From assembly GCF_947623445.1 (NCBI RefSeq), contig NC_135243.1, positions 23,134,479 through 23,198,478 of the forward strand: a stretch of DNA of 64,000 nt, given 5' to 3'. The notes under the pieces are model-generated. The model worked only from the letters and a program-made list of their open reading frames with translations, was not told the DNA's origin and searched no databases. Shown here piece by piece: positions 50,001 to 63,331 of this stretch. The position numbers and the translations under genes were made by a program. The number at the start of each line of letters is the position of its first letter. Positions within the stretch are counted from its first letter, which is position 1. The DNA comes from Clavelina lepadiformis. Its lineage: Eukaryota; Chordata; Ascidiacea; Aplousobranchia; Clavelinidae.

Positions 50001-51684
50001 CGTTTTGCATTGACAAAACCAAGCCTTTAAGTAACCGTAGCTGTGACCCGTACATAACTTTGCAGCAGCTTTATACGTCGCTGATTTACCAACCTTTGAA
50101 TTGTTGTTATAGTCTTATTTTCATTTAAATCTATTTATAATATTAATATATATACATAATCTAATCTAAATCTATATAATATAATCTATATATAATATAG
50201 ATATACTGTAGTCTCGTATTTGCTGAATTTATTTCAAATTTTATGCTGCCTACTGTTTTAGTTATATTGATAGCATGTGCAATCATTTCCGATGATTATT
50301 TCTTGACATTCATATATTTCTAAAGATCTTGCGTTTTAAAGTGGCAAAATTACAGGCGTTGACAAACTTCTATTAAACTTGTTGAATTCAAGGTGGCCTC
50401 GAGTCGGAATATCTTTGATGGTCTTCATTGCTATTGCAAGTATGGCTGTTTGCGGAATATTGTCTGCCCTTGGTCCTATTCAACCATTTGCTTTAATTAT
50501 TTCTCAAAACATTGGCCTGTAAGTTGCATGAATGAAATAAGTGCCAGGTCTTTTAAGCAAAATGTTGCCATCACAACAACAAAGTGCTTTGTCATTACTT
50601 CAGGTTGAACATACTGTCTGACATTCCAACCTACGACATGAAGTTCAGATATGATATATATTTCCTACCATGGGCCAGATTACACGTGTACATGATTGGG
50701 ATGTTAACTGGTTATGTGCTATTCGCTACTAAGGGCAAATTGACAATTCCAAAAGTTAGTGTCGTTTTTTGTTTAAATTTGTTTAAATAAAATTACAAAG
50801 GTAACAATCGCAATGGAAACTACCAGTAAATAACTTAAAAACGAGAATTTTATCCTCTCCAATACTTCCTGTTTATGTCGAACGACACACACTTCAATAT
50901 AAAAAAAGTTTTGCGTAAAATTACGTTGCATACGATACACACGGTCAATTGAGAACAGGTCAAACAGCAAATATTTTTCATCTCTAGTGGTTGGTCGTTT
51001 TGGGATGGTTGGCATCGGCTGGCAGCTGCTTCGCGATCATTTTCGGTTTATATCCACAAACCAGCACAGATACTGATTTAGACACTGGATTGGCAATAAT
51101 TTACAATGCTTTTGAAAGACCTGTGTATGGACTTTGCCTTAGCTGGATGATAATAGCTTGTACATCTGGATATGGAGGTAAGGATATGAATGGAAAGCAA
51201 TGGATGCTATAATATATGTGACGAAATAACCTTCACGTTTTGATTAAGGTCCTGTGACAAAGTTTCTGAATTGGAAAATTTTCAACCCCCTCAGCCGATT
51301 AACTTTCTCCTTCTACCTCGTTCACTGTTTGGTATTGATTGTGTACTTGGTGAACCGGAATAACATGATCCATTGCCAGACCATTGACTTTATCTTCACA
51401 TACATAGGTACAGTATTGCAAAACGGTTTAAACAATGATACTTTGTGACGTTCACATTTGTTAAGATATAATATGTTTGCAAACTCAAGAGTTTGTTATT
51501 GTTTTAACGCAAACATTTATTTTTAGGCTCCTTTTTCATCAGCCTAGCTTTGGCATTTTTGCTCTGTTTAACCATTGAATGGCCGACCATGGAACTGGCC
51601 AAAGTCCTTCTGCCTTCCAAACGAGGTGATCCCTCCAACCGATATGAAAAATCGGACCAGAAAAAATTGTTGAAGCAACGGTGA
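47092..51684 (+). CDS. nrf-6-like: Nose-resistant-to-fluoxetine (NRF-6)-like acyltransferase-3 family membrane protein
   Basis: Fourteen exons in consistent phase: 47092-47300, 47514-47626, 47762-47904, 48038-48240, 48371-48498, 48775-48933, 49128-49317, 49451-49619, 49711-49790, 50393-50518, 50604-50754, 50988-51177, 51249-51407 and 51527-51684; 725 aa. A signal peptide (MRFFCETNLLLLLCFF) leads into the Cys-containing NRF domain (WGRKQSGILDGNVEWMGNY, YECIEAKG, VGICVPSGCSE). A first membrane segment (exon 5) follows, then the acyltransferase-3 core with the hallmark NGIRFLSTAWVALGHVF (invariant His, about residue 309), YSVDTFFLLGGLLVSYL, PWARLHVYMIGMLTGY and PLSRLTFSFYLVHCLV. These are multi-pass membrane acyltransferases; the nematode member affects lipid and drug transport. 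The acyl acceptor cannot be read from sequence. All core motifs are intact. Confidence 0.9.
50130..50220. repeat. AT-rich simple repeat in an acyltransferase-gene intron
   Basis: Run of ATATAATCTA/TATATA units in the long intron between exons 9 and 10. Confidence 0.5.
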
Positions 51685-54600
51685 AGTGAGAAATGTGCTT
51701 TTTTATCAAGAACAAGTTCTTTGAAGTTGTCATGTTCACCATTTAAATAGAATCAGGAAACTATTTTTATCTTGAGTTTTTAAACAGAAAACTTTTAATT
51801 GTATTGCTTAGACGTTTAATTAAAAGTTTCTTCTTTGTGATATTTTGAAGCTTTCTAACTATAAAAACTCTAATTTTAAAAGTGATTTTCAAGTTACCGT
51901 TACACCAACATTTGAAATATACGTTTATGCACTTCCCCAACGGCAACTACAATACCGTGACATCATCGCTTTGAAAAAATGAAAAGTTTACTATAGCATT
52001 TAATATATATGCAGTATTCAGAGAAGAAAACTCATTTTGTTTTGTGTTAAATTTTATGATCCATCGCGCTTGTGTTTACAACTACACAGTCGGTCCAAGG
52101 CCTTCTCCACCTTTGCAAATAGCCTTTTACGGTGTCCATTGATTCCACAGTCATCGAACCAGAATATAAACATCGCTTTTCTATACCAATTCAATTTTCT
52201 CACACGGTGTTTTTTAACCAATATTGCACATAATCATACACTTTGTATGAGAGCGATCGTATTTGATCTTTAAGTTCAATATTCTTGTTATAGTCACGAT
52301 TTATCATCGTCTACATTTGCTATTTTTGAGCATATAAGTATATCTCGTTCCAATCGTAATAACAAAATGCAAAATAACGAATCACTCGACAGTGTCGTAG
52401 AAAGCAAGAAAAATATCATCATACAAATCTAACTGAAGGAGCTATTAATCATTGTAGATTATGCTTGATTAGATGGAGATAGAAAAAAAGGACTGAAAAG
52501 TTTAACAAATAAATTTTACATTAAAAAACCAGCGGATAACAGGCTTAAAGACTACCTCAGTTTGAAAATAATAAACAACCAGTTCTGTTTTTAACATTTG
52601 GCATGAACATAGCACTATCGTAATTACCACGTTTAAAATAGCAGCTGTTAAGCAGAGTTAGGAAATTAGAACTGTCATAGTTACCACATTTAAGATAGAA
52701 ACTGTTAAGCATTTTCACATTACATTTTGAACGCGGCGAGTCTATCAAAGCCAACCACATGATCTGAATGGATGGCCTGTTTACAAAATGGATTTTTTAA
52801 ATAAAAGCTTCTTAGACAACAGGGCCTAGCGTTTATCACATGATAATTTTATCAATGCAAGCTTAAAAAGCAGGATCTAAAAAGCAATGAATTTGAATAA
52901 CAAAGAATTCAACTTCCTTAACAGGACTTTCTCTCTTCAAAACTTTTAAAAGTTTTGTGTGTTGAAATACCGATAACGACTAAGTACGCGTTTTTTTAAA
53001 AACGTATAGGCTACATTGCAAATAAACTTTAAGAAACAAATGTATTTTAACTGATATGGAATAATGCGATGCTGATAGTTATAGGAAGCTTCCCACAGAC
53101 TTGCTGGTAATTTTGTCATAACTAACCTCTTGTAAGTTTTTCTAGCTAACTGAAGTCACTCGATTGGAAACTGTACTCAACGACGGTACTATAATTGCGG
53201 TAACTTCCAAACATAATTTGCGTCCAAACTGGAAAGTGCATACAAACTTTAGGTTGTTTCAAAATGTAAGGTGCTGGTGGTGTAACCCTAGTCAATTAGC
53301 TTGGCATTTGGTTAGTGTTTAAGTGATTTTAATAAAGGATGAGAGCAACGCCGTCTGCAAAATAAGAATCGAGAAGTTGCTACCAAAAATCGTCTGCCAA
53401 GACATCGTCAGTCACTGTTTGTTTGGCAATTTTTTACCAACAGTTCCAGCAACTTTTGGTTAAACGGCACTAAATTCTAGATTGGAAAGTTTGCATGCAC
53501 AGAAACGTGATAAAACAAGTAGGAGTAATTGTTACAAGTTTATTTAACAGTAATAATTGTTTTGTAATTTAAATTCGTCGATAATGATTTAAAGATCATG
53601 TTGATGAAAACGGATGTTATAAAATTACACAACGAGCAAAGCTGATGATAAGTTACGCAAGGTTTTATCTGATGGTTGCAAACCATGAGTAAGAAGTGCA
53701 GCAAATTGAAGAACTGCCATGTTTTTAAAAAACATTGCACAGAAAAAGAAACAATCTCGGTTTAAAAAATACAAATTAAAGGCACGGTAATAATTACTAC
53801 AATTATAAAATAACACAATTTTATTTTATGATTGCTCATCAATACCAAAATGTTTCTAAAAGCAAAAAATTATATGCAACAGGACTCATTACCATAGAAA
53901 CAGTTAAAAAGGTCTACAACAAAAGCAACAAAAAATCTAGTTTTAAAACAAAGCTTACTTTTGTTCCTACAATTCATTCAAACAATAGATGTAAAACAAT
54001 GAAAACCTCGTGCAGTTATAATGTGGATGCATAAGTTGAGTCGCATGAAAAATAAGTCAGATCTACAGAGCACAGTCAACGAAAACATTTTTAAATTGCC
54101 GTCATAACAAATGAAAATACTTGGAAAGTGTAGGTTCATCTTTTGAAATGTCTACAAAGTTTATACATTCTCAAATGGACCATAAAAACACACCGTATTA
54201 ATACAAACAACAAAAACATCAAATGAAAATGTTTTTATCTAAAAATGTACACAGCTGAGGACAATGACCCAAGTTTCCATCAAGGATCATCACCGGGTTT
54301 AATTCGTGCAAACACTTCAATCAATCCGAGGATACAAATTTTGTATCAAATTTTACCAAACCATAATGCTAGCTAATATTTCCACTGTCTAAGATGCCGT
54401 TGGTATTAGCGATATTGCATCCACTTGATAGTTGTAATTATTGTGTTAGTTGATCTATGTTGTAAACATATTATCATAAATCGTTTAAATATGAGTCGTA
54501 ACATAATTATGATTACATATGATATGACAAATATAAACATATTGCACAGAAACAAATGTAGACTGAATAAAACTAAAGACTAATAATTGTGGAATGCTAA

Positions 54601-54992
54601 ACATTATAAAATCCACATGGTTTGTCTTACATTTTTGCACTCAGCACTCAAAACGTGGAATACTGATAAAACCATAGAATCAGTGAGATTAAACGGATTA
54701 ACCGGAGATTAATCGGACAACTATCACATGTTTGTCAAATGCTTCAGAAGGTGTTGAAATGATGGAACTTCATAATATAATAAATAACTTACAATATTTA
54801 CAAAATGTTTCAACTTTCATATGAAATTTACAAAAAAGCATGATAGTGACTTATGTCCATTGACAGCTTTAACATTTGTCTCATTAGCATATAGTTAATT
54901 AGCATACAAAATTATAGATCATTAGCATATAGTACGGGGTTTTGTCAATCTTTGCATGGTGGGGGCACTTCTTTTTTTTACATTACTTACCT
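51685..54992. other. Convergent intergenic region (acyltransferase 3' end and CUB-gene 3' flank)
   Basis: Plus-strand acyltransferase 3' UTR on the left and the 3' flank of the minus-strand CUB gene on the right. It holds the repeat at 52392-52630 listed separately. No other exon with matching splice sites and phase was found on either strand. Confidence 0.4.
52392..52630 (+). repeat. Repeat shared with 63332-63569 (direct orientation)
   Basis: Runs from GTGTCGTAGAAAGCAAGAAA through GCTATTAATCATTG and AATAATAAACAACCAGTTCT to ACTATCGTAATTACCA, closely matching the right-edge copy with small substitutions and indels. Just after it, about 58-bp units (ATAGTTACCACATTTAA-type, near 52611 and 52669) are tandemly repeated. 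Confidence 0.75.
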
Positions 54993-55024
54993 TTACGAAC
55001 TAACAGTTATTTGGCAACACATGA
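54993..55024 (-). CDS. Possible terminal exon of the 4TM-CUB gene
   Basis: After an acceptor GTTGCAG, a phase-1 frame encodes FMCCQITVSS and a TAA at 54993-54995. It fits the phase left by the exon at 55255-55411. It starts like another CUB exon (TCATGTG compared with TTTCATGTGG) but stops after 10 residues, so it may be a decayed third CUB exon used as the end. A consensus GTAAGT also follows just past the stop. Weak. Confidence 0.3.
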
Positions 55025-55254
55025 CTGCAACACTACACGTTAATGCAGTATCAATGATAATCATAACAAAAATATTATTTCACCTCTACACTTAAGCAAT
55101 TTAAAGAAAAATCGCTGAAAACTACCCAGCTATCATGTCACTGTTAAAGATATGGGTTTAGGTTACATGTGTCATATGTGTGCAGCTTATACAGCTAAAT
55201 ATTGCTAAGCACCTGTAGTATACAACTTTAAAGTTCCAGGAAAAATATACTTAC

Positions 55255-58200
55255 ATTGTTCGTATTTTGCCCAAAAACCTTTGCTAGCAATTTTGCTGTC
55301 AGTATCTGTGTAGTCTGAAATGTAGACAAGTTTCATGGATTGCTCTTCAGACATCACATTCTTTTGATCTTTGCCCTCTAGGATCTTTCTGAGTACTTTT
55401 CCGTCAAAGATCTACATTTATAATGTTATCTTTGTTTGATTGCTGATTTATAACAAGTACTCAATTCTCTTTCCTTTATTTAAAGGTTAGTGTCATTCCT
55501 GCAGGCCTTTTTCTTGCATAACATATTTGTAAGCAAATTTACAAATTTTTAATGAAATGGGTAAAGATTTTTATATTTTAACTTTCCTTTTGCACAATAG
55601 AATATTTATAATAGAAAAGCGTATGCCCGGAAAGCAGAGGTGAGAAGTACCGCAGTACTGTAGTACCGAATTACTGTTCTGCGATATATGCGAGGTTTTG
55701 AAAAGCATGTGTTTTAAAACTTCCCTTTAATTAAAATTTAATGCCAATTTTAGCGCTTTTTGTTGGCTCTTAATCTACAAATGTCCAATAAAGTCAAAAG
55801 AGTGAGTTCACATATTTTTTGACCTGAAGTAACCTTTAACTAGGTCATAACATTAGCAAAAATTGCACTTGCAATAAGATCCGCAGTACAAAAAGTACCA
55901 GTACTGAGGATGGGTAAAGTGCCGAATTTCTTTTTTTGTAACAGTACCGAATACCAAAACCGTCGGTACATTTTTTGCCAAGTACTGGTACAGTTAACGA
56001 CGGTACTTTTAAAGTACCGACTTCCCACCTCTGCTGGAAAGACTAACAGCCATCTAGGCACCCGGTTTGAACATGGTCTTAGTCTGGGGTATCTTCATTG
56101 CTAGATTGCACACTTCCACACAAGTCCCCAAACCACGAAAAAGTATTAAGTCGGTCGTAGAGGTGGGCAATGTAATATTCTTCACTGTGGGTTTAATACC
56201 CAAGATGTTGACCGTCTGATCAATGAATGCCCAGTGACCAAAATCAACGACGGTTATAAATCAATCTACGCATGTGGTGACAAGTTATGTTAAAATTACA
56301 GAAATCTAGTGCAATATTTAAAATCAGTAACTCTACTATTGGTGAAATTGCGACTAACCTCAATTTTGGCACAGCATGCTTCAGTATCAACTAACAGTGA
56401 TAATTTTACTCCATGTCCCGGCTGTGCATGGAATGTGTACGTGCACTGAAAGTTATACATTGTGTTGTTGGGATAGTTGGGTGAGGTCACAACGCCAGTT
56501 GTTCCATTATTTATTTCATAATGTCCACCACATGAAACTGTAAGCAAAATATTTATTTAACTTATTAGCTAAAGAACTTATTTCATGAATCACAGTTAAT
56601 TTATTATGATGATTAGGCCATATTAGATTTTGCTATTGCTGTTTTAAGCCATAAAGCTATAAAGCAAAATGTTATTAAAGTATACAACGTGCCTGCATGA
56701 TGGAGGGAAATGTACGTTGTACTGTTTATTATTTACATAAGACATGAAGATCTCTCCGACATACTTACATTGTCTGTATCTTGCTAAAAACCCTTTGCTT
56801 GCAACTTTATGATTGGAGCTTGCACGATTAGAATTGTAAACCAGTTTCAAAACTTGCCCAATTGATAGCACATCTGTATGCGGAATCATGCCAGTCAACT
56901 TCCTGATGAAACCTTCCTCATCATAAATCTATTAAACCGTTTAATCAGTTCTTTGTGGTTGTAATGTTGTCTGGATTGTTGTATGGTAAATATTATATGT
57001 TTTCACTATGTTAGAAAGGGTTTTCTTTCTTTCTTTTATATATTATGCAACACTATATTTTAGTCTATTTATTTTATGATGCATAATCAGGAACTGGTTG
57101 TCATAGTTACTGACATCGATATAATCACAACACGATTCAATATCAACTTCCATATCCAGTTCAACTCTATAGCCTGGCCGTGCATGGAAAAAGAAAGTAC
57201 ACGAAAAGTTATGTTCAGTGGTGCTAAGGTAGCTAGGGGAAGCCACCATGCCGGTTGAACCATTAGTTAAGTTGTAGTTTCCAACACAGGAAGCTGCAAA
57301 TCAAAAATCATGCGACACTGTAAACCAAACAGCATGATAAACAAAGCAATATACTTATCAAATAAATTAATTAAACTACAATTGAAATAAAAAACAAAAC
57401 AAGTACAATGTATATATTACAAAAATGGGAGTATGACTGTAAATAAATGTAAATCATAAACACACACATTTATTATCTAATTTTAAGACCTAAATTAAGC
57501 CAAAAAGCTAAAAAAATCATCAAAAGCAGGAACGCACAAATCGCAAAATTACCTACGTACCCTTTGAATCAATTAACTGGTAAGAAGAAAAATGAATGAC
57601 AAAGAGCATACAGGGTGCGAAAATGAGAGTCGTTGCACCAAGAATTATGTTCTGCATAAAGGTCTAAAAACAACAAACAATGGTGTTAGTTATCACCAAG
57701 ATATTACAGACATCACAAATATTGCTGATAATGTCATAAAAAGAAATTAATCTTAATAAGCTGAAAAGACATCAAGATTTTATGATAATTAAAAAGAAAC
57801 TACTTAAAATGGTTATATATAATTATGGCTACTTGATGTAAACTTAATCAAATGAAGCTCAAACTTCAATACAGACAATTATGCAGGTTTAAATAACAAC
57901 ATAAATAGAATTTTACCTCCTTTGAACATATAAAAATTTGAATGAACATCCTGCTGATGGCTCTTATGTCAACGTTATCTAAACATTATAAAGATATAAA
58001 ACAAAGAAGCCATCAAAACCAAAATATATTAATGATGGAACTAAATTTATATAGTAAAAAAGTAGCATTTTGAATAAAAATCCAAACAATTTTAATATTG
58101 AGTAATTTGTTTGGTTCTTGTAATGTTAAGCATATTTCGTTGTTTTAAAAGTCTTAATAAATAATTAAAAATTTGTAAGACAAGTTTTTGCAACTTTAAT

Positions 58201-61200
58201 TTTAACAATAGACGACATGCTTGTACGGTATTTAGCAATTTAACTGAAACAATAAAGTTTAATTGTTCAAATAAATTCTAGTAGAAAAGCAATTAAACAA
58301 CATTAGACCAGTACGAAAAGATGCATATAACAAAACATTACCAACCTTTTAAGATCCAATAACTGATAATAATGAGTAATGCAAATATGGTCAACGGCAA
58401 AATAACTAAAATCAACCCCTGCAAAAAAATTAATTTTTATAGATGTAGGTGATAACACTGATAAACACTTATTATTGATAACACTTAGTCTAAGATTAAA
58501 ATTTAGTTAATGCTTTAAATTTATTGTAAACACATAAAATGCTTTATTACATAATTTTAATATCACAGTAACAAACTTTTTTAAACTTTATCAGTAATTA
58601 AAGTGATAGAAAAGTGAAGAATACCAAGTGCTAAGAATATTATTAGTCAGTTAAATATCCAGGTCAAACTCAAAAGTTTAGTATTTACATATTCCGTACA
58701 TTGAAAAATAATAGTAGCACTGACGAACGGGATGGAAACATTAATTAAAATTTAATCTCATCAGTTTGGCCTTGACGAGTTATTCATAGAACAGTTTTAT
58801 TGCACATTTGATTTAGTTTATTAAATTGCATATTTACAAATATACAAAAAGCAGTTTATTAAATAAATTTGTTTTTATCCCATCTTTATCTATGGCGAAG
58901 AAAAACAATGTCAATAAAAAAAATTAAAATCTTCTGGAAATGTAGCATAATAAGACGCATGATTAGTGACTTACAACTTGTTCAAGTGGCGTAGAGTCAT
59001 TGAGGCTGTTTCCATTTGAAAATGTCAATCGAGCTAAAGTGAAAAAACAAAATATTATTATTAACTGTTATTATTATTTTTACATATTATTACTACAATA
59101 TATAAAAAGTTGACATCACAAAGCTTTGCATCCTACTACGTCATTTTCTATATTATTACAATATTGGGGATGCATCTGCCCTATAACGTTATGCTCTCAT
59201 AAACAATAGATAAAACTTGTCAATAGTTTGGACTCCATTCCGAAAAGTTATTTGAAAGCAAGAAAAGCAAGAATATCAGTAAAAGAAGAAAACTTGCAAT
59301 ATATTCAAACACTCAAAAAGCATTGTATGATTGTGCATTGCAACAAAAAACTCAAAGTTAATATGACACAAAATTTTTTTTACATTAAATGAAATATTTA
59401 ATGTAGAGTGTTTAATGTAAAGTATTCTTTCAATCGGCAAATGAACGTATGTATAATTGACAAAGAAATGTATGATTGCGCATTGCAACAAAATTGCAAA
59501 CTCTAGTTAAATTCACCCAAGAGTTTACTGCAATGATATAAATAGTAAATTTTAGGTTGGTTGTATAAACACTGCACAATTTTAATATGGCCTAAACACA
59601 TGTATTTGACTTATTTTTGTACATGTATGTTTGATATGTCACTTCAATTACATACTTTCAAGCGTGCAACGTTGAATTCAGCAAGCCAAGTTCAGAATAC
59701 AATAAAATTGTCGCATAGGATTGAAATTATTAAATATCTTCATCAGCTTTAAGCTAACATGGCATGCATCTTGCTTTCAAAACATTTAAATCTTTGGTAA
59801 CAACGTGCACTGAGAAATCATAAAAACTGAACAACGTAGAAGAGAAATGTTTTATGCAATGCCACAATTTAACCTACAAACAAGAACTACTCCTGAACAT
59901 TTTCCCCCACTGGATAGCAAACAGTTCATAAGAACAGAAATAAGCAACTACACAGCTTACTTTCTGCAGTGTTCTGTAAAAGCACCCCAAACGAAAGCAA
60001 CATCCCAAGTGTTATGAGAACAGTCCCCCACAATATCTGTAATAGAATAGATGGAAGTTGCTATTTCTTTCCTAACAGTTTTTTAGTGATCAAACAATAA
60101 TTGTTGCTAATGTCAAAAATTCAATGATTGTAAAGCTCATGTGTAGATAACAAAAAATTCTACTTAACAGCATATGTTACAGTGGTAATAGAATAAACAA
60201 TACAACATATAATAGTACAACTTACCGTGGTAGGAGGTTTACAGCTTGTTAAGAATTTCAAGATTCCAGTTTTACCTGAAACACGTAAAACCATCCTTGT
60301 ATAGAAATCAATAAAATTGTAAATTAAATATTTTTAAGATCAAAAAAGGACAAAATGCAGATGGTGCAAATCATACATTACTATACAGATTTTTTTAAAT
60401 TCCTATATACGTATTATTGGTATTGATATTTACTGTATGTCATTCATGTTTTATAATATAATATAAATGTGCTATTAATATATTAGTTCATAGCATGTTC
60501 ATTTAACACTTGATAGAAAAGGTGCTCAAACTGCACTCTTCGAGCCAAATGTGGTTTTCTAAGAGATTTTGTGGTTCTGGGCAAGGCTTAAGAAAAATTA
60601 TCTAAATTAAGACAACTGAGTTCTTCAAATACTTCCTTTATGGACTACTCACTACTGCCTTAATCTGGAAGAGGAGCTTAAGTGCCTCAATAAATGTTTA
60701 GCTAAAACTGGAGGAAGCTTTGCTTCCAAAGACATTACTATACCAAGGCAGGTCAAAAGGTAGAGATCAGAATAAAGTGGTTCATATAAATAAATAATGA
60801 ATTAACTGGAAGAATATCAATGTTACCACATCACTCATCAGGTGACTGGTGACTCATCAGGTGGTCTCTTACAGCTAAGTTGTAACAACAATCTTAGCAT
60901 TATGAACACTTTTATTCTAACATAAAGATGCACACGAGTATAGCTACTGTAGTCTGTAGTACAGTAGTGCACAACAGCAGTTGCTGATCAGTTTTTGTAT
61001 TTTTTCAGCTGATGCCTTTTTTCTGTGGTGAATGCTCAAGTAAAAAGTAAACCTGAGTTATCTACTGACTACAACCGGTTTGTCTGCGACCTACGTCTCT
61101 TGAAATCTTTAGGATACCCTAAATCCAATAAAACAAAGTATAAGTTTATCAAAATAATACAAAATTTACTGCTAGGAAAAACTTTTGCTGACAAAATCGC

Positions 61201-62896
61201 AACCATGTTTAAAGAACGCTGCATGAAGAACATTGAGATGAGGTGCACACTGTTTAAAGCATCGATCCTACCATCTGCTACCGGAGTGTGCAATCAGAAA
61301 GGCTCATTGTAGTGGGAAAAACACCTGGTGAAAAGTGGAGTTTAAAGCGTCTATTTGGACAAAGAAGGTAGCCTGCAAACCCTGGCTACATGACAGATTG
61401 TGTTCTGCTTTGCGAGCTTGATACTGGTAGGAGTGTTTCAAGATTGAAAATAATAGGATCAACCATTTGTTGTTTGCAGATGATCTCTTTCTCCTGACTT
61501 TTTCTGAATGTGATCATAAACATGCACCCGATCATTTTGCAATCGCTTGTAATGACTTTGGGACAAAACTAAGCATATAGAAAATTGAGATACTTTGCCT
61601 CTCAAAAACCCTGTTTAGTGCAAGTGTGAGCAGACACACTTATAAAGGTCAATAAGTCAAGTACCTGACAGCCAAATCATAAGTGATAAAAGGCAGGACT
61701 TTGACTTGTACACTCGAATTTGAACAGCAAGTGCAGTCTTGCATGCACTTCAACTTCCAGTTGTGTTGAATTAAAAGCTTTTTAAGATCGCTAAGCTCTA
61801 AATCTAAGCTTCAAATCAGCTTTCCTTCCAATTCTCACCGATGGTCATAAATTTTGGATAATGACGGAAAGAGGTTGTTCAAAGAGCAAGCTTCAGAAAT
61901 GGGATTTTAAGGAAAGGTTCATTGTGCAACACTACAGGTATTAGATGAAATGTGCAGTACTTCAGTGTCTGAAATCAGCAAATCTCTAAATGTTGAGCGC
62001 TACTTTTTCGAATTGAAGTGCCAGCTATAATGGTATATGGTCACATGTTTTCAACGTTTTTATGAAAAACATATGTTTTCAAGCTTGAAATATAAGCTTT
62101 CCATAAACCTAAGTTAACATTACAAGTCATTTAAGTAGAAATCAAACACAAAATAAACCACAACCTACAAGTACAACATCATGCAAAAATTGAAAAACAT
62201 TTACATTTTTTGAACCAATACCACACTCCAAGCAATCCGAAAAGAACTACAGCAGATGATGCTGCAATAGCTGAAAAGAGGATGCGCTGCAAAAACAAAA
62301 GCTCAAGGTTCCAGATAATATTACTGATAAAACACACTTTGAGGTCAAACATTAGTTCGTGCAAAATTCATAATACTAGCAAATTTGTCAATATAATTTT
62401 GAAATGACTCCGAAAGTTTGAGTTTAAATTTATTTGTTTACAATACAAAAGATGCTAAATGAGATGCAATATACGTCTACAAACTGTTGAAAGACAGTTT
62501 GACTGTGCTTCATCACTTTATCTGTTAATATTTCTAAATCCTTCGGGCAATGTTGGAAAATAGAAGTAAACAAAAGGTAACAAAATCAAAATCATACCAA
62601 GAGTCAAAAAGTATACTAATCATTAGTCTAATGACTAACCATCATAGACAACAAATCACTGCTATCATAGACAACCACCACTGAAGGAGAAGTGTAATTG
62701 CTTCCATTGAGGCTATGTCCACTTGTGTTTCCTTCATCTGAGGGAATTCTTTGATCTGTGGAGATATACAAGGTAGATAAAAATCAGTTTTATGTAATGT
62801 AGTATGCAATGAGGAACTGTCTTGTATTGGCTCAATGCAAAGTCCTAATCTAATAATGTATGAAAAAATGATAAGATAGTAAAATAACAATATCAT
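55255..62896 (-). CDS. Tetraspanning membrane protein with two C-terminal CUB domains
   Basis: Minus-strand exons: 62818-62896 (ATG, signal peptide MILLFYYLIIFSYII), 62640-62755, 62205-62286, 60226-60275, 59961-60036, 58975-59033, 58346-58418, 57917-57978, 57561-57663, 57115-57293, 56769-56928, 56359-56537 and 55255-55411. Every junction is in phase; together with the weak exon at 54993 the product is about 468 aa. Order: short ectodomain with three N-glycosylation sequons (NTS, NGS, NYT); TM1 (about 66-90); basic loop; TM2 (110-133); outer loop with a sequon; TM3 (155-178); basic loop; TM4 (203-222); CUB1 (234-346; TGMVASPSYL, KGFLARYRQ); CUB2 (347-459; TGVVTSPNYPNN, KGFWAKYEQ). Basic inner loops and glycosylated outer loops give one consistent topology with the CUBs outside. 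I know no named family with this layout. The donor of exon 1 (ACA|GTTCCT) is weak. Confidence 0.65.
55635..56033. mobile_element. Non-autonomous hAT-type MITE inside a CUB-gene intron
   Basis: A 399-bp element with ends CAGAGGTGAGAAGT and ACTTCCCACCTCTG (13 of 14 inverted match) flanked by CCGGAAAG (55627-55634) and CTGGAAAG (56034-56041), 7 of 8 identical. Internal GTACCG-rich subterminal repeats. It sits between the exons of CUB2 (56359 and 55411). Confidence 0.8.
61025..61760 (+). pseudogene. Non-LTR retrotransposon reverse-transcriptase remnant
   Basis: On the plus strand around 61450-61610 one reads INHLLFADDLFLLTFSE followed by a downstream KIEILCLSKT, the FADD active-site block and the following region of LINE reverse transcriptases, then a degraded VKYL near 61660. 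Frame changes and stops occur before and after, so it is dead. It lies antisense in the intron between the CUB-gene exons at 60275 and 62205. How far it extends to the left is uncertain. Confidence 0.6.
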
Positions 62897-63331
62897 TTTG
62901 AAAACAAGTTGATAACATTCCAATTCAGTTGTTTTAATGTTAAAATATCTAAACATAAACAGTTCTATAAACTACCACATAAACCCTCTTTTTGAACAGC
63001 ACATGTCTCTGAAAAATATTGCAGGATTCCTGTACACCACCATGGTCTAAACATCATGTGCTAAAATCTCACCAACTGGGTGAGTTGACAGAATCAGAAA
63101 GATCAAGTAAAAAAAATATTTAAACAACACCAACAGCTGGAAATGACGATTGTAAAAATGTTGCCAAACTTTTAAGCATCCCAAGCAAGTAAAAGAGGCC
63201 GAGATGACAAAACTGCAACCTGGGCTACACTAAAATGGTGTATGCCAAAGTTTGCAAATTCGGCCCAAAGTTTAATTCTATTTACCGCCTGCAACAATCC
63301 GAACAAGAACATAACTTGACAAACTAACACT
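62897..63331. other. Upstream region of the 4TM-CUB gene
   Basis: Immediately to the right of the signal-peptide ATG (minus strand), presumably promoter and 5' UTR. No exon or motif could be supported. Confidence 0.35.

Follow-up and report, generated by a model that had tools for sequence, protein, structure and literature searches.

A candidate three-gene family in Clavelina lepadiformis for a reverse-order, five-span receptor-like kinase with CUB domains

The window studied here is a 64,000-nucleotide stretch of the Clavelina lepadiformis genome (C4:23134479-23198478); positions above 64000, marked 'extended', continue along C4. It holds only the 3′ part of a minus-strand gene, copy A, whose kinase exons, linker and exon for the first transmembrane segment (TM1) lie upstream of the window. 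As a whole explanation, we consider it fairly probable that copy A is one of three C. lepadiformis genes for a reverse-order, five-span receptor-like kinase. The architecture, with an N-terminal kinase, a linker, five TMs and two extracellular C-terminal CUB domains, is a strong prediction from exons and domain matches, and the domains suggest a signalling receptor as the likely function. The initial annotation, made from the window alone, had read the locus as a signal-peptide protein with four membrane spans and twin CUB domains. As an account of the whole protein this is superseded, since the window cuts the gene: in our model it continues upstream with a kinase and a fifth TM, and the models and the annotated copy C alike describe five spans behind an N-terminal kinase. 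If correct, this chordate family, with its reversed order and five spans, would show that exon and head shuffling can give rise to such a layout.

Three gene copies and their domains

A tblastn search of the window plus 100 kb with P0001 located two minus-strand copies ~53 kb apart, A (the window gene) and B, each with kinase exons upstream of the TM-CUB tail. P0001 (LOC143451422 isoform X2, 749 amino acids (aa)) is the protein closest to the window exons, with 362/446 aligned residues matching; the end of a kinase domain, a linker and an additional TM precede exon 2 in it, TMs and CUB domains follow, and it lacks a signal peptide. The copy A model has 27 exons and encodes 1159 aa without an internal stop (extended 72614 to 54441, plus the stop codon). 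Its first twelve exons come from the NCBI model P0008 (LOC143453066) and the next two, for the linker end and TM1, from homology to B; 696 residues, the kinase domain among them, stand ahead of the TM1 exon. The copy B model has 24 exons and encodes 1025 aa (extended 128260 to 107076); its first four exons were hand-joined on frame and GT-AG borders, the remainder being fixed by P0001, and these four are partly modelled because P0001 starts inside the kinase domain.

Copy C (LOC143451850 isoform X2, P0007, 978 aa) joins kinase and CUB in one annotated protein, maps exactly onto 21 exons over 24 kb of the same chromosome (C4:22931225-22907240) and is ~40% identical to P0001. Kinase exon lengths are 185/471/242/189 in C and 185/453/242/186 in B, and the two copies agree in the lengths of exon 2 (116/116), exon 6 (59/59) and the CUB exons (179/160/179 in both); compared with B, copy C has fewer linker exons, and its TM and loop exons are longer in places. 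Exons 2-13 of the window, 12 exons in all, recur in the same phases in copies B and C. That one exon-phase plan is kept at ~40% identity argues against a chance joining of neighbouring genes. The perfect phase originally claimed for 13 exons was confirmed for exons 2-13, which have GT-AG borders; exon 1 is treated below. The coding features of the window, with differences counted against copy B, are:

62640..62755, minus strand: exon 2 (coding exon 15 of copy A), outer loop TM1-TM2 with 3 sequons; 0/116 mismatches
62205..62286, minus strand: exon 3, TM2, fast-changing; 23/73 aligned bases differ, plus 12 gap columns
60226..60275, minus strand: exon 4, basic inner loop; placed by phase and topology
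59961..60036, minus strand: exon 5, TM3, fast-changing; 20/76 bases differ
58975..59033, minus strand: exon 6, outer loop with 1 sequon; placed by phase and topology
58346..58418, minus strand: exon 7, TM4, ordinary divergence; 4/73
57917..57978, minus strand: exon 8, basic inner loop; 9/62, 3′ border 3 bases further than in B
57561..57663, minus strand: exon 9, TM5, fast-changing; 27/103
57115..57293, minus strand: exon 10, first half of CUB1; 4/179
56769..56928, minus strand: exon 11, second half of CUB1; 2/160
56359..56537, minus strand: exon 12, first half of CUB2; 1/179
55255..55411, minus strand: exon 13, second half of CUB2; 7/157
54438..54454, minus strand: short last coding exon, YQLTQ plus stop; P0001 C-terminus matched in A and B

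The last of these (54454-54438) was missing from the initial exon list. Two exon borders are not shared by copies A and B: exon 8 ends 3 bases apart in the two, and the copy B acceptor of exon 9 sits 12 bases further in, which makes 57651 an alternative start for this exon. A donor for exon 10 at 57111 was rejected, as it breaks the frame, and 57115 is the correct end.

The two CUB domains first proposed after the membrane spans are borne out by PF00431, which matched two stretches of the window tail (61.2 bits; cut-off, 21.4) and scored 57 bits in copy B. Each CUB unit starts in phase 1 and has an internal phase-0 intron, a usual form of shuffled modules. The kinase domain PF00069 scored 140.8 bits in the head of A, 138.3 in B and 146.8 in C (cut-off, 31.7), and the G-loop, Lys, HCDLK..N, DFG and APE catalytic motifs occur in all three copies. 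By domain match and catalytic motifs the head is a predicted Ser/Thr-type protein kinase, the DLK..N motif being what we take to be the Ser/Thr-type form. Its best solved-structure matches are ULK1 (E 2e-23), IRAK4 (9.7e-23) and RIPK3 (1.6e-22), whose scores lie within a few bits and do not separate kinase groups.

Hydropathy gave five spans in each of the A, B and C models. Four TMs do follow exon 2, as originally described, and the loop topology fits; the models add TM1, upstream of the window, so that the count is five rather than four. Sequons in the window lie only in outer segments (three in exon 2, one in exon 6 and five in the CUB part); both inner loops are free of them and are the basic segments, with their Lys/Arg clusters, in each respect as first noted. 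Copy B likewise has sequons in outer loops and CUB domains and none in inner loops; the TM3-TM4 outer loop of copy C shows none because the cut-off puts its NTT in the next span. Linkers, roughly 185-390 residues long across the models, also carry some NxS/T triplets. Cytosolic segments may hold such triplets.

Fast-changing membrane-span exons

An alignment of copies A and B over 7,366 columns gave 94.3% identity; noncoding mismatches occurred at 490/11,637 positions (4.2%), and divergence is concentrated in particular exons. The exons for TM1 (11/79 mismatches), TM2, TM3 and TM5 differ by 14-32%, compared with 0.6-4.5% for the CUB exons and 3/102 bases for exon K7. Most of this divergence ends at the splice sites: 100-base flanks at the four TM exons held 39/788 mismatches versus 81/331 inside the exons. 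For TM1, TM3 and TM5 together (TM2 was left out of this group for its gaps), nonsynonymous divergence (dN) was 0.329 and synonymous divergence (dS) 0.110, giving a dN/dS of 3.0 (Fisher p=0.0051), and dN exceeded the noncoding rate (p=1.8e-25); dN/dS for the CUB exons was 0.46. The hydropathy of the spans is kept despite the changes. We read the pattern as pointing to diversifying selection on the TM helices, from a test that is small because it compares two copies in one genome.

The main rival is gene conversion that made the rest of the duplicated segment uniform while older TM exons under relaxed constraint stayed different, or else the entry of TM exons from another copy. We regard this as a serious possibility, though the less probable one. 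It would account for a dS in TM1, TM3 and TM5 (0.110) above the noncoding 4.2%, and for TM2, which counts against selection: the proportions of synonymous and nonsynonymous differences there are nearly equal (pS 0.33, pN 0.32) and divergence is also elevated in the flank upstream of it (12/98), so TM2 by itself does not show selection. An unusually similar patch, 62984-62540, with 3 A/B mismatches in 445 bases, is also as conversion would leave it. Against conversion stand the sharp fall in divergence outside the exons, the excess of dN over dS with hydropathy kept, and the lack of a third genomic source of TM exons: with the TM part of A as query, matches occurred at A and B only (10/10 candidates scored). 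This query missed the TMs of C and could likewise have missed copies that are more distant.

TM exons that change several-fold faster than their own introns beside near-unchanged ectodomains make A and B a natural paralog pair for testing how receptor assembly is encoded in membrane helices. The similar patch, comprising intron and exon 2, lies just ahead of the most divergent exon. Elsewhere, an intronic stretch (extended 67874-67812) differs between A and B at 28/60 aligned bases and may be a misalignment.

Exon 1 and the continuity of the gene

Exon 1 (62896-62818), to which a signal peptide had been assigned, is absent from the annotated paralogs P0001 and P0007. Copy B has a TM exon joined directly to exon 2; the counterpart of this TM exon in A (extended 65168-65090), 1,090 bases beyond the window end, is intact and of matching phase. 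Exon 1 has a poor donor (gttcct) followed by an intron of just 62 bases. On these grounds, exon 1 was rejected as the main start, and the signal peptide with it. Use of exon 1 as an alternative first exon of a kinase-less, four-TM isoform is unlikely, with no result in its support.

Several observations weigh against the continuous five-span kinase. P0007 is the sole annotated protein that joins the whole architecture. P0008, the NCBI model of copy A, ends after the linker in a different exon, before TM1; P0006, on another contig, is a kinase head without a CUB domain; and the start of P0001 lies inside the kinase domain. An AlphaFold model of copy C from a five-row alignment had a mean pLDDT of 43.7 and was unusable (in this low-confidence model there are only five long helices and two strand-rich regions). 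In protein searches for relatives (two lists of 5 proteins; best 120 of 232, with 7,994 candidates scored), C. lepadiformis alone among the matches listed had proteins in which a linker or kinase runs into a TM-CUB tail, so no species comparison backs the architecture.

Taken at face value, the ends of P0008 and P0006 could mean that the window copy makes two transcripts, one for a kinase-linker protein and one for a separate four-TM CUB gene starting from signal-peptide exon 1, whose frame is open into exon 2 and which is identical in A and B. We judge this improbable. The annotated copy C protein and P0001 join linker, TMs and CUB domains without exon 1, the TM1 exon of copy A is intact and in phase, and the low divergence of exon 1 is a property of the entire surrounding patch; its donor and intron also count against its use. 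We prefer the five-span kinase reading, in which a single mRNA would run from kinase head to CUB tail at the window copy.

Kinase heads, nearest known layouts and possible role

Within the 209,060,895 bases searched, close tail exons occurred at A, B and C only; next came a multi-CUB gene at C3:21.66 Mb with one related CUB, and after it weaker CUBs. (The published C. lepadiformis genome is given as 210.1 Mb in 9 chromosomal pseudomolecules in the excerpted text of PMC10884593.) The kinase head is common, with at least 56 exon matches among those listed (47/377 candidates scored), the weaker of which may be other kinases. Many related kinase exon loci lie at C4 23.9-24.4 Mb, with others on C3, C5, C1, C2, C6 and C7, and they are mostly 43-54% identical to copy C over the second exon. 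Copies A and B belong to a tandem segmental duplication on C4 (window 50002-62984 plus extended 64805-68736 versus extended 102742-120779), with DNA identity of 75-96% by block, which ends near 68736, where the kinase heads switch. Upstream of 68736 the heads of A and B match only 52-58%, exon by exon, so near-identical tails carry different heads. The head of A is 68% identical over residues 75-310 to a kinase head at C4:24.24 Mb, for which the 10 kb taken included no TM-CUB tail, though one further on is possible; two downstream reading frames there were without a Pfam match over cut-off. A further kinase head, A1, precedes the head of A itself (extended 79036-76499, C4 ~23.211-23.214 Mb); its DNA is 84-88% identical to the head of A, its fifth exon has an in-frame stop, and it is probably a broken duplicate.

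The initial annotation had called the architecture undescribed, and we likewise found no description of a kinase, five-TM and CUB protein in the open-access PubMed Central literature. The nearest layout found in print is that of the GPCR-TKL/K receptors of acanthoecid choanoflagellates, in which a C-terminal kinase follows seven TMs; fusions of a similar kind occur in oomycetes and amoebozoans (PMC12716839, in the excerpted text). Like the Clavelina protein, they unite several membrane spans and a non-tyrosine kinase, TKL-type or other, in a single chain. The excerpt mentions no CUB domain for them, whereas Clavelina has five TMs, an N-terminal kinase and C-terminal extracellular CUBs; membership was rejected on TM number and kinase position.

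Other known kinases share parts of the plan. The kinase domain is like those of RIPK, IRAK and ULK, which are soluble, whereas the Clavelina kinase heads a membrane protein. In the usual animal receptor kinases the chain runs from a sensor through a single TM to the kinase, and receptor tyrosine kinases have an N-terminal ectodomain, a single TM and a C-terminal tyrosine kinase; we rejected membership of the latter on the reversed order, five TMs and Ser/Thr-type HCDLK..N motif. Bacterial PknB-type kinases have a cytosolic N-terminal kinase, a single TM and C-terminal extracellular PASTA sensor domains. They are like the Clavelina protein in their N-terminal kinase and C-terminal outside domains, and differ in being bacterial, with a single TM and PASTA. 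The tail shares the CUB fold with cubilin (E 5.7e-16) and neuropilin-2 (5.1e-8), and a TExCCD-like motif is common to the Clavelina CUBs, the Ciona CUB proteins P0002 and P0004, and the multi-CUB gene at C3:21.66 Mb, one CUB exon of which is 63% identical over 60 residues to that of copy C. Pfam lists no kinase in P0002-P0005.

We propose that the kinase and linker would be cytosolic, with TM1 acting as a signal anchor, four more TMs following and the CUB pair outside, where it may bind a partner in the extracellular space or on a neighbouring cell. Binding would be passed on by the five-helix bundle, which would also set which receptor copies assemble together, and the clustered kinase heads would then phosphorylate downstream proteins. 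We offer the setting of assembly specificity by the TM bundle tentatively, and think it rather unlikely. More doubtful still is a reverse-order animal receptor-kinase family whose diversifying specificity sits in the TM bundle rather than the ectodomain: the CUBs of tandem copies stay near-identical, the TM helices diverge so that each copy self-assembles, and swappable heads from a large kinase family share a single sensing tail, perhaps for recognition or immunity. Nothing here fixes the TM role, and membrane proteins with attached kinases exist (TRPM6/7), but a channel or transporter regulated by the kinase, with accessory CUBs, is improbable, no such family being among Pfam matches to E=1 (3 and 9 families in two scans).

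Several further loci came to light. P0010, a metagenome protein of 1081 aa, begins with an EGF-receptor-like part that includes one kinase; a second kinase follows, which is 35% identical to the Clavelina head (124/359 residues), and there is no CUB. It is either a double-kinase receptor or two merged genes. A tandem array at C8:1263336-1274733 comprises ten CUB-like exon matches spaced 1,246-1,247 bases apart. At C3:21.49-21.66 Mb there is a long run of CUB exons, among them those of the multi-CUB gene that carries the closest match to the kinase-linked CUBs. Kinase domains in unbroken reading frames of ~300 residues form clusters at C2:3310277-3379185, C9:14695043-14754300, C5:21832082-21913666 and C4:22583511-22645091.

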